Shown in pieces: positions 15,145 to 33,396 of a stretch of 64,000 nucleotides of DNA. This DNA comes from Desulfobacca sp. GTDB taxonomy: Bacteria > Desulfobacterota > Desulfobaccia > Desulfobaccales > Desulfobaccaceae. The notes beneath the pieces were generated by a model. It had not been told where the DNA came from. It saw only the letters and a list, made by a program, of their open reading frames with translations, and did not search any database. The stretch's first letter is position 1, and every line of letters begins with the position of its first letter. The stretch lies in the NCBI GenBank assembly GCA_020725545.1, contig DYEV01000003.1, positions 1 to 64,000 on the forward strand. The letters are read 5' to 3'. The position numbers and the translations under genes were made by a program.

Positions 15145-15735
15145 ATGTTACCCCGGACGCAACAGCTCATCATCCTGATCCTGGGCCTCTGCCTGACCGG
15201 CTTCCTGGCCTGGCGGGCAGGTTGGCCCGGTTCATCGGCTCCAACAACCCTTCCCACCCTACCCTATTCTTTCGTTGCCATCCAAGGAGCCGTCCCCCAA
15301 CCGGGCGTGCGGGTGTTCCCCGCCCCGCCCACCGTGGCGACGGTCTGGCAGGCCGCCGGAGGCCAGGGCGAGATCTCGGATGGCAGCCACCCCCTCAGAA
15401 GCGGCTCCAAGCTCACGGTTGCCTCCGATGGGGGCGTGACCATTGAGGCTATGCCCGGCCCCGACCTGATTACCCTCAGCGTGGCTCTGGACCTGAACCG
15501 GGCCAGCACTGCCGACTTAGAAGCCGTTCCAGGTCTGGGGCCGGTTCTGGCGACGCGCATCGTCGAGTTCCGCAAAGCACACGGCCCTTTCTTGGCAAGC
15601 AGCGATCTGCTCCAGATCAAAGGGATCGGACCGAAACTGCTTGAAAAAATTAGGCCGTATGTGGTTATAATAGCAGAGACGGCTCCCATGGACTCAGAGC
15701 AGCAAACAGACCCTGAGTCAGACCCATCGAATTGA
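15145..15735 (+). CDS. ComEA-like helix-hairpin-helix protein
   Basis: The 196-residue product has one N-terminal membrane anchor (residues about 7-25), a middle beta region like the SLBB/soluble-ligand domain of ComEA, and two helix-hairpin-helix motifs at about 112-172 ([39 protein letters not shown]). ComEA proteins bind incoming DNA at the cell surface or in the periplasm during uptake. No other competence gene is adjacent, so a role in transformation is only inferred. Confidence 0.8.
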
Positions 15736-15748
15736 GTCGGTAACATCA

Positions 15749-17014
15749 ATGGTGCCAGGTAATTTCATGACAAGTCATGCTGCTGCCAACGGCACGAGCG
15801 TGCCCCGGATAGAATACCTGCGGGTCAGGAAGTATCGCGCCCTCTATGATCTCGAACTCGCTGACCTGACACCTCTAACCGTCTTTCTGGGCCCCAACGG
15901 CAGCGGCAAATCCACCATTTTTGATGTCTTTGCCTTTCTCTCCGAGTCATTTACCATGGGCTTGCGTCGGGCTTGGGATAAAAGAAATCGCTTTAAAGAA
16001 CTGCGTACTCGGGGCGCCACCGGACCCATCGAATTTGAGCTCAAGTATCGGGAACGCCCGGCTACGCCTCTGATCACCTATCATCTTGCCATCGAGGAAA
16101 GCCGCCTCGGCCCCTATGTCAAAGAAGAACGGCTTAAGTGGCGACGGGCGCAACGGGGACAGCCCTTTTATTTTCTCAACTTCCGGGAGGGCAAGGGCCA
16201 GGTCATCACCGGAGATATGCCGGAGCATGATGATGCCCGCATAGATGAAACCCTCGATTCACCAGAGATGCTGGCGGTCAATACTCTGGGACAGTTCGCC
16301 AAACATCCCCGAGTCAGTGCCCTGCGGCGTTTTATCACCGGCTGGTATCTTTCCTATCTCTCGGCCGATGCCACCCGGGGCCTGCCCGAGGCCGGACCGC
16401 AGGAACGTCTCTCCGCCACCGGCGACAATCTGCCCAATGTCATTCAGTATCTTAAGGAACAACATCCGGAGCGCTTAGAACATATCCTCACAGTTCTTGC
16501 CAGCCGCGTCCCCTGCCTGGAGAGGGTCGACGCTGAGATGTTGGTAGACGGCCGTTTATTGCTGCAGATCCAAGACGCCCCTTTTGAAAGGCCCATTCTG
16601 GCCAAGTTTGCTTCTGACGGTACTTTGAAGATGCTGGCCTATCTGACCCTCCTCTACGATCCCAACATTCCACCTTTAGTAGGCCTTGAGGAACCGGAAA
16701 ACTATTTGCATCCCAGGCTCCTGCCCGATATTGTGGAAGAATGCCGCAAAGCCACGCGTCGCACCCAGATCATGGTCACCACCCACTCCCCCTATTTTGT
16801 CAACGGCCTCAAACCCGAGGAGGCATGGGTTCTGTATCGTGACGAGCACGGCTATAGCAAAGCCGTACGTACCAATAATATGCCTGGCATTGACGACCAT
16901 ATCAAAGCAGGCGCGTCGTTGGGGGAACTATGGCTGGAGGGTTATTTCTCGGTGGGGGACCCTTTTGCTGACGGAGGTACCCCCAAGCATTTGAAACTTG
17001 TATCGAAAAAATGA
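15749..17014 (+). CDS. RecF/OLD-like AAA ATPase paired with DUF4276 protein
   Basis: The product of about 421 residues is an ABC-type AAA ATPase (AAA_21/COG4637 style). A Walker [10 protein letters not shown] lies at 48-56 and a long middle region follows. Near 311-317 is the Walker B/signature-helix stretch [16 protein letters not shown], then a switch histidine in [11 protein letters not shown] near 345. No nuclease domain is fused. Its stop overlaps the start of a DUF4276 gene (ATGA). ATPase/TOPRIM-type pairs of this layout include OLD-family nucleases and PARIS (AriA/AriB) defence systems, so an anti-phage or DNA-processing role is inferred. ATG at 15767 is an alternative start with a better ribosome-binding site. 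Base composition is like the neighbours (34 of 60 G/C at 16021-16080). Confidence 0.75.
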
Positions 17015-17631
17015 CCGCAGCAAAGGCCCATCTGGAATTCTTATTGGAAGGAGAGTCAGACGAAGTCGTGTTGGCGGCTCTTTTACCGAAAATAGTTCCA
17101 GAAGGAGTGACGTATACCCTTCATGCCTTTCAAGGCAAGCGCAATCTTATGAAAAAATTATGGGCAAGATTACGCGGCTATCGTGTCTGGCTGCCGCCAG
17201 ATTGGAAGATCGTGATCTTGTGTGATGATGATTTACAGGATTGCAGTGAATTAAAAGAAAATATTCGTACTATTGTTGCTCGGGAAAAATTATCGATCTT
17301 TAGCAATACTGATATACATAAAGAAGGCGCTATTGTTATTCGATTGGCCATTCAAGAAATAGAAGCTTGGTTTTTTGGCGATGATGAAGCATTGTGGCAG
17401 GCTTATCCTCGCCTGTCAAGAAAACCGGACCAAAAGAAGAAATATCGCCAGCCCGACGCCATTGCCTCTCCATGGAAAAAGCTGGAGAAAATCTTGCAAA
17501 ATGCCGGTTATGACATCGGCGGCAAAAGAGAGGTAGCCAGGACTATCTCGCCCTTTTTGGAACCGTCCCGGAATCGTTCCCGGAGTTTTCAGGTCTTCTG
17601 GCAGACCCTGATGACCATCTGTGAGCAATAA
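17011..17631 (+). CDS. DUF4276 (TOPRIM-like) protein, partner of the ATPase
   Basis: The 206-residue product carries the DUF4276 signature: FLLEGESDE near residues 10-18, CDDDLQDC at 71-78 and [15 protein letters not shown] at about 111-125. The Glu of the first motif and the Asp cluster of the second are placed like the acidic metal-binding residues of TOPRIM nucleases or primases. It overlaps the ATPase gene by 4 bases (ATGA), implying coupled translation and a shared complex. The middle of the gene is unusually A/T-rich: 37 of 120 bases are G/C at 17221-17340. This suggests a different history from its neighbours. Nuclease activity is an inference. Confidence 0.75.
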
Positions 17632-17693: not shown

Positions 17694-19418
17694 ATGGTTG
17701 CAGAATCACCCGTTGCCCAAGACCCACAAGCCATCATTAACGATCTGCTGCAGGACGACAGTCCCATACGCTTGGAACGGCTGGCCTATCAGCCGCCCTT
17801 GATCCCGGTTTTTCGGGAGGGGGTCGGGGCGCTGCGGCCCCTGGAGGGGTTCAATCTGGAAGTCCTGAAAGCCGCCCGCGACCAATTGCCTTACGTCAGT
17901 GACAATAAGCTGGTCCAGATTGTTCCCGGCGACGTCCTCCAGGAGCACCCCCGCCGCCTTGGTATTGTTCTGTCCGGCGGGCCGGCCCCGGGGGGCCACA
18001 ATGTCATTGCCGGCGTCTTTGAGGCGGCCAAACGGGCCCATCCCGATAATGTCCTCATCGGTTTTCTGGCCGGGCCCAAAGGTATTATTACGAATAAGTA
18101 CAAAGAGGTTACTGCTGAGTTGATCGGCACCTACAAAAACTCCGGCGGTTTTCACATGCTGGGCACCGGCCGGGATAAGATCGACACCGCAACGAAGATG
18201 GAGCAATGCCGGGAGACCTGCCGACACCTGGAATTGGACGGGCTCGTCGTTGTGGGCGGCGACGACTCCAACACCAACGCCGCCTTCTTGGCCGAAAATA
18301 TGCGGGATATCGGCGTCCAGGTCATCGGCATCCCCAAAACCATCGACGGCGACCTGCAGGTGCCCGGCCTGCTCCAGATACCTTTTGGCTACCACTCGGC
18401 CTGCCTGAGTTTTGCCACCGAAGTGGGCAATCTCAACTCTGATTGCAAATCCGACCTGAAATATTGGCACTTCAACCGCCTCATGGGCCGCAGCGCCAGC
18501 CATATCGTTCTGGAAGTGGCCCTCCAGACCCATCCCAACGTGGTCCTCATCGGCGAAGAGATTGAGGAAAAGGAACTGACCATCCACAACGTGGTCCGCC
18601 TCATCGCCGACGTCATTGTGGAACGCGCCAAGCGGGGCATGAATTACGGGACCGTCCTGATTCCTGAGGGCATTTTAGAATTTATCCATGAAATCAATAT
18701 GTTGATCATAAAGATCAGCTATATTATCGCCAATTATGATAAAGAGGCGGCCAACAGCGAAACCTTCCACGCCCTGCCCATCGAGGATCAGGTCCAGCTC
18801 ATCGACAACCATGATATCTGGCGGGACTATGATAGCCGGGTCTATATGGGCTTGCCCACGGAACTGCAGCGGGGTCTGCTCCTGCCCCGGGACAGCCACG
18901 GCAACTTCCAATTTGCCCAGGTGCGTACCGATCGCATCCTCCTGGATATGGTGGCCACCTATTTGCGCAAACAGCGGGGCCGGGGCATCTATAAAGGGAC
19001 TTTTCGGTCCCAGAACCACTACTACGGCTATGACGGCCGGGGCACCTTCCCCACCAAATTCGACTGCGATTACGGCTATAACTTGGGGGTGACAGCCTAC
19101 AGCCTGCTGGCCAACGGCTGCACCGGCTACATGGCGGCCATTCGGCATCTGCACCTTCCCGTGGAGTGCTGGGAACCCATCGGCATTCCGCTGGCGCCGC
19201 TCATGCACCTGGAGGAACGCAAAGGCCGGCTGGAATTGGTCATTGCCAAACAGAAAGTGGACCTGGAGAGCCCGGCCTTTAAAATCCTGGCTCGGGAACG
19301 GCAGCGCTGGGCCCTGGAGGATCACTATCGCTTCCCCGGTCCCATTCAGTTTTCCGGCCCCAGTGCTGATGCCAAGCCCATTTCGCTGCAGTTGAACGCC
19401 CTGGCATTGGCAGGCTAG
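17694..19418 (+). CDS. pfp: Diphosphate--fructose-6-phosphate 1-phosphotransferase (PPi-PFK, long form)
   Basis: The 574-residue product belongs to the long PPi-dependent phosphofructokinases. It has GGPAPGGHN near residue 95, GGDDSNTN at 188-195 and PKTIDGDL from about 214. The Asp in GGDDS, where ATP enzymes have Gly, is the known determinant of PPi use. It interconverts fructose 6-phosphate and fructose 1,6-bisphosphate reversibly, so it can serve both glycolysis and gluconeogenesis. With ppsA in the same window this fits growth on small organic acids. It is a single gene with a strong AGGAG site ahead of ATG 17694. Confidence 0.93.
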   Translation: MVAESPVAQDPQAIINDLLQDDSPIRLERLAYQPPLIPVFREGVGALRPLEGFNLEVLKAARDQLPYVSDNKLVQIVPGDVLQEHPRRLGIVLSGGPAPGGHNVIAGVFEAAKRAHPDNVLIGFLAGPKGIITNKYKEVTAELIGTYKNSGGFHMLGTGRDKIDTATKMEQCRETCRHLELDGLVVVGGDDSNTNAAFLAENMRDIGVQVIGIPKTIDGDLQVPGLLQIPFGYHSACLSFATEVGNLNSDCKSDLKYWHFNRLMGRSASHIVLEVALQTHPNVVLIGEEIEEKELTIHNVVRLIADVIVERAKRGMNYGTVLIPEGILEFIHEINMLIIKISYIIANYDKEAANSETFHALPIEDQVQLIDNHDIWRDYDSRVYMGLPTELQRGLLLPRDSHGNFQFAQVRTDRILLDMVATYLRKQRGRGIYKGTFRSQNHYYGYDGRGTFPTKFDCDYGYNLGVTAYSLLANGCTGYMAAIRHLHLPVECWEPIGIPLAPLMHLEERKGRLELVIAKQKVDLESPAFKILARERQRWALEDHYRFPGPIQFSGPSADAKPISLQLNALALAG

Positions 19419-32409: not shown

Positions 32410-33261
32410 TCATGGCGAAGCCTTTGCTCCTGGTTGAAGCCCATCACGGCCAGCCAAACTGTGTAAGAAATCTTGCATTACCAGGCTGAAGGCCGCCGGC
32501 TGCTCCAAGGGCGGAGAATGGCCACAGGCCTCGAGCACTGCCAGCGTCGCTTGGGGCAACAAGGTTTGAAATTCAACCCCCACCTCTGGCGGCGTGATGC
32601 GATCCTGACGGCCCCACACCAATAAAATTGGCAGATGCAAGCCGGGCAGATGGGCCCGCAGGTCAAAGCGGCTGGAGGCCTTGGCCAGCCGCACCAGAAA
32701 CAGGCGCTGGCGCCGGTCAGTCAGAAGCGCTACGACCTCATCGAGATAAGCATCGTCCAGAACAGCAGTATTATACAGGATAAATTGCGCCTGTTGGTCC
32801 ACAAACTGCCGATCGACCCGGATAAACTTGCCGTTGGCCAGACTGCGTTCAAACAAGCCAGCGCTGCCCGTCAAAATCAGGGCTTGCACCCGCTCCGGAT
32901 AACGGCCGGCAAACGTCACCGCCACCTGTCCACCCAAAGAATTGCCGCACAACACCACCCGGTCCAGGCCGTAGACTGCTAGGAATTTTTCCACATAGGC
33001 GATCAGTCCCTCCAGATCGGGAGCTTCCGGATTAAGCCAGCCCTGACGATAATCCAGAGGCAGCCCCAAACAGATCATAGAAAACTCGGCCGCCAGACGC
33101 GTCAATACCGGCCGCCACTGCTCCGGCCGGCCAAACATGCCAGGCAGGCAGAGAACCACTCTCTCCCCTTCTCCTTCTTTGATGTATGGGAAGTCTTCTG
33201 GCACGGTAAACTTTGGCTGAATGAAAGAATTTTTAAGGAATTTTATCCACCTTATAAGCAC
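32410..33261 (-). CDS. Alpha/beta-fold hydrolase
   Basis: The 283-residue product has the nucleophile elbow GNSLGG (Ser108), Asp220 in WGRQDRITPP and His248 in ACGHSPPLEQP, a complete Ser-Asp-His triad. The fold includes the oxyanion segment LPGMFG near 39-44. The closest overall look is the MhpC/BphD group of C-C hydrolases and esterases, but the substrate is unknown. It is on the minus strand, upstream of the efflux operon, and divergent from nrdJ. Confidence 0.75.
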   Translation of the reverse strand: MLIRWIKFLKNSFIQPKFTVPEDFPYIKEGEGERVVLCLPGMFGRPEQWRPVLTRLAAEFSMICLGLPLDYRQGWLNPEAPDLEGLIAYVEKFLAVYGLDRVVLCGNSLGGQVAVTFAGRYPERVQALILTGSAGLFERSLANGKFIRVDRQFVDQQAQFILYNTAVLDDAYLDEVVALLTDRRQRLFLVRLAKASSRFDLRAHLPGLHLPILLVWGRQDRITPPEVGVEFQTLLPQATLAVLEACGHSPPLEQPAAFSLVMQDFLHSLAGRDGLQPGAKASP

Positions 33262-33296
33262 TGAGAAGTTTTGTCAAGTATGGGGAGAAAAAAAGC

Positions 33297-33326
33297 TTGA
33301 CATTAGAATATATAGTATATTAAGAT
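33297..33326 (+). promoter_or_regulatory. Sigma70-type promoter of nrdJ
   Basis: A perfect -35 TTGACA at 33297-33302 is followed after 18 bases by TAAGAT (33321-33326), a fair -10. The first NrdR box begins directly after the -35, so a bound repressor would block polymerase. Confidence 0.5.
33303..33318 (+). promoter_or_regulatory. NrdR box 1
   Basis: TTAGAATATATAGTAT matches the NrdR consensus ACACWATATATWGTGT at 12 of 16 positions. It lies between the -35 and -10 of the nrdJ promoter candidate. Its start is 31 bases from that of box 2, about three helical turns, the spacing known for paired NrdR boxes. Confidence 0.65.
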
Positions 33327-33333
33327 ATATTTA

Positions 33334-33349
33334 ATACTACATATTGTGT
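33334..33349 (+). promoter_or_regulatory. NrdR box 2
   Basis: ATACTACATATTGTGT matches the NrdR consensus at 14 of 16 positions. With box 1 it forms the tandem operator bound by the ATP-cone repressor NrdR when dNTPs are plentiful. It lies in the untranslated leader, 48 bases before the nrdJ start. Confidence 0.75.
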
Positions 33350-33396
33350 CCAATTCATTGTATTCCCACAAGCTAATCATTGCCAAGGAGGAAGCC

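Follow-up and report, generated by a model that had tools for sequence, protein, structure and literature searches.

A HEC-01 pair of an ABC-type ATPase and a predicted Toprim nuclease, a candidate anti-phage system, at a variable chromosomal site in Desulfobacca

The window analysed here, a stretch of 64,000 nucleotides from Desulfobacca sp. (contig DYEV01000003.1, positions 1-64,000), carries a pair of co-directional genes on the plus strand (15749-17631). The first gene (15749..17014, +) encodes a 421-aa ABC-type ATPase (AAA_21), denoted A or HEC-01A, and the second (17011..17631, +) encodes a 206-aa DUF4276 protein with a predicted Toprim fold, denoted B or HEC-01B, both assignments drawing on Pfam, PADLOC and AF2 models searched with Foldseek. 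The two genes overlap by 4 bases (ATGA), and the pair is the sole occupant of the interval between the flanks of a variable spot, namely, a ComEA-like HHH gene on the left (15145..15735, +; Pfam HHH_3, E 3.6e-20) and pfp on the right (17694..19418, +), a phosphofructokinase-like gene encoding 574 aa that is identified by synteny and by its identity in relatives. These neighbours are housekeeping genes, and no defence island surrounds the pair in the window. An earlier reading of this DNA from its letters (hereafter, the sequence-only reading) had described the two ORFs, how they overlap, which families they belong to and their lone position between these flanks, all of which the ORF list and Pfam bear out. 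The ATPase might truly begin at the ATG at 15767 and not at 15749, because the homologues begin at about that point and residues 1-15 of the model have pLDDT below 50.

A search against defence-system models, suggested in the sequence-only reading and run with PADLOC, gives HEC-01A and HEC-01B as by far the best models for the two proteins. A matches the HEC-01A model PDLC04182 at E 2.5e-163 (residues 19-404 over model positions 2-404 of 406), and B matches the HEC-01B model PDLC04202 at E 1.5e-69 (residues 7-204 over model positions 2-201 of 204). By these model matches, the pair is a member of HEC-01, a little-studied candidate defence system catalogued in PADLOC. The name stands for Hma-embedded candidate, according to PMC12988326, which cites the discovery preprint of the HEC systems (10.1101/2024.01.29.577857). 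The window shares with HEC-01 the two adjacent co-directional genes and the DUF4276-type B, but in the window the copy is flanked by housekeeping genes, without a Hma cluster, and relatives occur in type I restriction-modification (R-M) operons. The Hma cluster is where the name comes from and not a sequence criterion, so that its absence leaves the membership in HEC-01 intact. In the searchable literature, a scope that does not include the discovery preprint, we found neither an experiment on HEC-01 itself nor a mechanism, and DUF4276 is named nowhere in it. The proposal of a two-gene immunity module of a type not well described accordingly survives in part: the pair is real and a good accessory defence candidate with an undescribed mechanism, yet the type is already catalogued.

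A is a member of the AAA_21 family (Pfam, E 3.2e-29), is related to RecF/SMC-type ATPases in the Pfam search and retains its ATPase motifs throughout 55 homologues. These are the Walker A motif GPNGSGKS (residues 48-55; 15890..15913, +), in which G48, N50, G51, S52, G53 and K54 are invariant, the Walker B region LVGLEE (residues 310-315; 16676..16693, +), with E314 and E315 invariant, and the invariant H346 within VTTHSP (16784..16786, +), which, by analogy with ABC ATPases, would be the switch (H-loop) histidine. The top Foldseek matches of the AF2 model of A (pLDDT 83) are to PtuA from Septu and from PtuA-bearing retrons (E 2.7e-14), and the sequence profile of A is likewise nearest to PtuA (E 3e-12).

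B matches DUF4276 in Pfam (E 4.9e-20), and E13, K43, D72, D74, E116, W120, D124 and F193 are invariant among its 56 homologues. The predicted catalytic glutamate E13 (17047..17049, +) lies at the end of strand 1, the predicted DxD metal site D72-D73-D74 (17224..17232, +) at the end of strand 3, and a family motif, E116-I-E118-A-W120-F-F-G-D124 (17356..17382, +; E118 in 55/56), further downstream. The sequence-only reading had singled out the acidic motifs LLEGESDE and CDDDLQDC; E13, D72 and D74 in these motifs are indeed invariant but E15 and D17 are not, and the E116-x-E118-A-W120...D124 motif had been left out. In the AF2 model of B, built from the alignment of 56 homologues (mean pLDDT 86.8, pTM 0.84), the predicted order of strands and helices is Toprim-like, E13 following strand 1, D72 and D74 closing strand 3 and E116 following a later strand; this placement of acidic residues at strand ends is consistent with a predicted Toprim metal site. 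The first Foldseek match of the model in the PDB is the uncharacterised protein PH0156 (2p62, E 8e-4), two OLD proteins, through their C-terminal Toprim regions, come second and third (6nk8 and 6njx, probability 0.99), and the later matches are noise. The TM-scores of about 0.47-0.48 and the best E value of 8e-4 are modest, and at TM about 0.47 the likeness of B to the OLD Toprim region is a fold-level match only. The sequence profile of B yields no significant match in the PDB, so that the assignment of the Toprim fold derives solely from the predicted structure. At this level, B displays the combination by which OLD nucleases are recognized, a Toprim fold (predicted for B) with a glutamate and a DxD motif, and the Toprim-like site postulated in the sequence-only reading is found in the match of the predicted structure to OLD Toprim domains. 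The structural comparison with OLD and PARIS proposed there gives a split answer: B resembles the OLD Toprim region, but AriB is absent from the top 50 Foldseek matches of the B model.

The likening of the pair to OLD and PARIS holds for the layout and fails for the membership. PARIS (AriA/AriB, 'class 4 OLD'), which responds to a trigger such as Ocr, resembles the window in having separate genes for an ABC ATPase and a Toprim protein, with the ATPase gene first, and in the occurrence of single-chain fusions now and then. By model scores, however, A and B in the window are not AriA-family and AriB-family proteins, and PARIS membership is rejected: the best AriA model matches A at E 3.4e-29, some 134 orders of magnitude short of the HEC-01A match, and no AriB model is among the PADLOC matches of B at E <= 1. 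OLD nucleases (P2 OLD, class 1/2) and HEC-04/IbfA also combine an ABC ATPase with Toprim, but class 1/2 OLD is one chain whereas the window has two ORFs, with a fusion solely in one relative (L070, described below). Septu and the retron PtuA-PtuB resemble the pair in that the solved structures nearest to A are those of PtuA and in that the ATPase is accompanied by a separate small nuclease (a predicted one in the window); the Septu partner PtuB, however, is an HNH protein, and the window partner is Toprim/DUF4276. Related ATPases are present in MADS (MAD3 model against A, E 8e-33) and AbiL (AbiLi model against A, E 1e-22), but the MAD3 match reaches 114 bits against a curated cut-off of 420, and no MAD or AbiLii model matches B. 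With HEC-01, DUF4276 would join the group of ATPase-gated Toprim proteins that includes OLD, PARIS, Gabija and HEC-04.

The 120-base stretch of about 31% G+C that the sequence-only reading had pointed out in the B gene does exist (at 17206, 120 bases with 30.8% G+C, below 99.9% of the 120-mers in the window) but is partly a family trait: of 61 homologous pairs, 92% have a B gene lower in G+C than the A gene, a regularity that weakens the low G+C content as a proof of separate origin. The difference of -9.7 points between B and A in the window is the largest among the 61 pairs. The G+C content of the window is lowest at 33220-33350, where it falls to 25% in 120 bases; this is an AT-rich intergenic segment flanked by an alpha/beta-hydrolase-like gene and a gene resembling adenosylcobalamin-dependent ribonucleotide reductase.

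The gene order aspartokinase-cimA-comEA-[gap]-pfp is retained in the family of the window, including a congener and the sister genus, and pfp in these relatives is 77-85% identical in the same gene order. In one member of the same genus (G002), the end of a B gene adjoins pfp at the contig edge. In another (G003), where the region lies on a single contig, the gap (L112, 2175-2316) retains only 48 bases that match the 3' end of B and read SKSFQVFRDTLRKICP. This remnant is identical to the G002 B gene at 42/48 positions (the alignment scores 71, and shuffled sequences reach at most 27) and is, as judged from this match, a deletion scar of HEC-01 B. In the sister genus, the comEA-pfp gap is without an insert in G004 and G006, and in G005 (L115, 2188-3785) it contains two other genes, which match PDC-M41A (E 4e-77) and PDC-M41B (E 1e-118), so that PDC-M41, another candidate defence pair in PADLOC, occupies the place of HEC-01. 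B in the window and B in G002 are 51% identical over 75 residues, compared to 85% for pfp, which could reflect either fast evolution of B or its swap for another allele. The presence-absence comparison recommended in the sequence-only reading, with HEC-01, a B scar, an empty gap or PDC-M41 in the different relatives, indicates gain and loss of modules at this site; that reading was also right that the pair was inserted as a unit. The intact site and the deletion scar occur within one genus and show a defence module turning over without any island around it.

Among 84,980 scanned species genomes, 322 relatives of the ATPase were identified, in bacteria and archaea. The loci studied are the best 80 of the 322 as ranked by A score (66-75% identical to A in the window), and these come from Cyanobacteria, Chloroflexota, Planctomycetota, Bacteroidota, the archaea Methanothrix and Methanolinea, and others. 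Among 395 genomes from the phylum of the window, the distribution is patchy (B in 35, A in 32), far from the universal conservation in place that the sequence-only reading had regarded as incompatible with its proposal, and all 12 close-subtype ATPases have an adjacent B. In the tree of A, the window is joined to two further members of its order (99/88), this group falls within a set to which Planctomycetes also belong, and phyla are intermixed elsewhere, a pattern that is compatible with horizontal spread, with bins and paralogues precluding a firm count. Mobile or viral carriage was considered and rejected, with no HEC-01 relative found in IMG/VR, only distant relatives (<= 34% identity) among phage records, and a Meiothermus plasmid as the carrier of one close relative.

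A host function of the pair, in DNA repair or nucleoid maintenance and not in immunity, would fit the housekeeping neighbours in the window and the relationship of A to RecF/SMC-type ATPases, and has a precedent in Cran1, one class of OLD-family ATPases with a reported cell-cycle role rather than a role in defence (PMC12796447). We nevertheless regard such a function as highly improbable in view of the sporadic distribution within the genus and the phylum, the deletion in G003, the presence in many phyla and in archaea, the repeated placement in R-M operons, and the alternation with PDC-M41, another defence candidate, at the same comEA-pfp address.

The pairing of A with B is near-obligate. 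In 70 of the 71 testable loci (those with an intact A and a sufficiently long downstream sequence), B or a remnant of B directly follows A, across several phyla and in archaea. B is full-length in 62 of the 71 loci, damaged or shortened in 8 (L015, L026, L032, L040, L063, L071, L073 and L084) and absent after an intact A in one (L086). In L026, L032, L063, L071 and L073, an intact A is accompanied by a single stop or frameshift in B, where sequence errors are possible; in L026, L063 and L071, the stop lies inside or adjoins the E116-D124 motif. The losses of B could also be explained if the pair were a toxin-antitoxin addiction system, in which A would be a conserved, antitoxin-like ATPase keeping the toxic nuclease B in check, the pair would persist through addiction, and phage defence would be a side effect: truncation, frameshift, stop or absence of B in 8-9 of 71 loci with intact A is expected if B is costly, and in PARIS, AriA sequesters AriB before infection (PMC12409363). 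This explanation appears unlikely, however, because the 80 loci were picked by A score and conserved A motifs, a selection that under-samples broken A, because sequence errors in MAGs could imitate some of the stops in B, and because the congener G003 lost A together with nearly all of B, neither part being visibly retained by necessity.

The absence of a fused nuclease from the ATPase, emphasized in the sequence-only reading, is true of the window and is the normal state of the family, with the exception of L070, a natural 615-aa single-chain A-B fusion (HEC-01A, E 1.6e-168; HEC-01B, E 2.6e-79) that implies a physical partnership between A and B. The evolutionary distances of A and B are correlated (Mantel r 0.71, 0/2000 permutations). 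A is more conserved than B in 99.9% of 1485 pairs, with mean identities of 72% and 53%, respectively, a gap that is inflated to an unquantified extent because the loci were gathered through conserved A motifs.

In our assessment, the pair is probably an ATPase-gated Toprim nuclease system that halts the infected cell, a candidate anti-phage HEC-01 copy on the chromosome. Under this scenario, A, a PtuA-like ABC ATPase, would oligomerise, hold or position B, and sense infection, whereas B would be a metal-dependent Toprim nuclease with an active site formed by E13, D72, D74 and, probably, E116. A phage-associated trigger would then bring about an ATP-dependent change in A that activates or releases B, and the activated B would cleave nucleic acid and shut the infected cell down, an abortive outcome. 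Triggered release or activation of B followed by cell shutdown is favoured by the precedents of PARIS, Septu, P2 OLD and HEC-04. In PARIS, an AriA hexamer holds AriB prior to infection and lets it go on a phage trigger, and AriB is a Toprim tRNase that cuts tRNA-Lys with a two-metal site and is gated by the ABC ATPase AriA (PMC12409363). Septu cuts tRNA-Tyr, and P2 OLD is a reported tRNA cleaver (PMC13096335); HEC-04, a relative in which ATPase and Toprim are fused, restricts both T4 and T5 (PMC12111858). By analogy with PARIS, P2 OLD and Septu, tRNA would be the likeliest substrate of B within this scenario, a tentative choice to which we assign slightly less than an even chance. The Cran1 precedent, the modest fold scores of B, the ordinary neighbours and the lack of an island in the window all count against an ATPase-gated nuclease that halts the infected cell. 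HEC-01 now becomes testable, with four residues to mutate and the natural L070 fusion available for structural work. The new elements are the deletion scar in a congener, the slot common to HEC-01 and PDC-M41, the embedding in R-M operons, the fusion, and a conserved ATPase set against a variable nuclease.

Across the 80 loci, the neighbours are mostly ordinary genes. At 7 loci (a raw count: L019, L026, L035, L036, L037, L038 and L043), A-B lies inside type I R-M operons, the Hsd subunits at these loci being assigned from family counts, clustering and sequence starts; in L036, the gene order is hsdM-hsdS-A-B-hsdR. The Meiothermus plasmid (NZ_CP021131.1; L180, 49824-61002), as annotated, contains hsdM-DUF262-hsdS-DUF4433-macro-A-B-hsdR in one run, in which the DUF4433/macro pair resembles DarTG. 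Placement of homologous pairs among defence genes, a question raised in the sequence-only reading, is seen at these 7 loci and on one plasmid. A PDC-M41B-like protein (L014, 83-865; start IEWTxxTWNPVTGCTK), identified by eye, is located about 7 kb from a HEC-01 pair.

Embedding in type I R-M operons agrees with DNA-acting neighbours and, along with the OLD Toprim regions 6nk8 and 6njx among the named top matches of B and the DNA cleavage reported for the OLD family (PMC10568477), would fit a DNA-directed system. Similarly to Gabija or class 2 OLD, B would nick phage or replicating DNA, with the ATPase activity of A gating access, and the invader DNA, not host tRNA, would be degraded. P2 OLD, AriB and Septu, however, are now reported tRNA cleavers, and B, like the Toprim protein of PARIS, is a small subunit in its own right, so that we deem DNA as the target possible but rather less probable. 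The residence in R-M operons suggests a link between HEC-01 and anti-restriction. We also entertain, as quite unlikely, the possibility that HEC-01 guards host anti-viral or DNA-handling machinery, such as type I restriction. The unusual conservation of A (mean 72%, across phyla and archaea) would then reflect the monitoring of a constant host-side event, for example, anti-restriction; the diversification of B (53%) would come from viruses that counter the effector step, decoy tRNAs being one example; and two-gene modules of this kind would be exchanged at the comEA-pfp gap, a slot in the chromosome.
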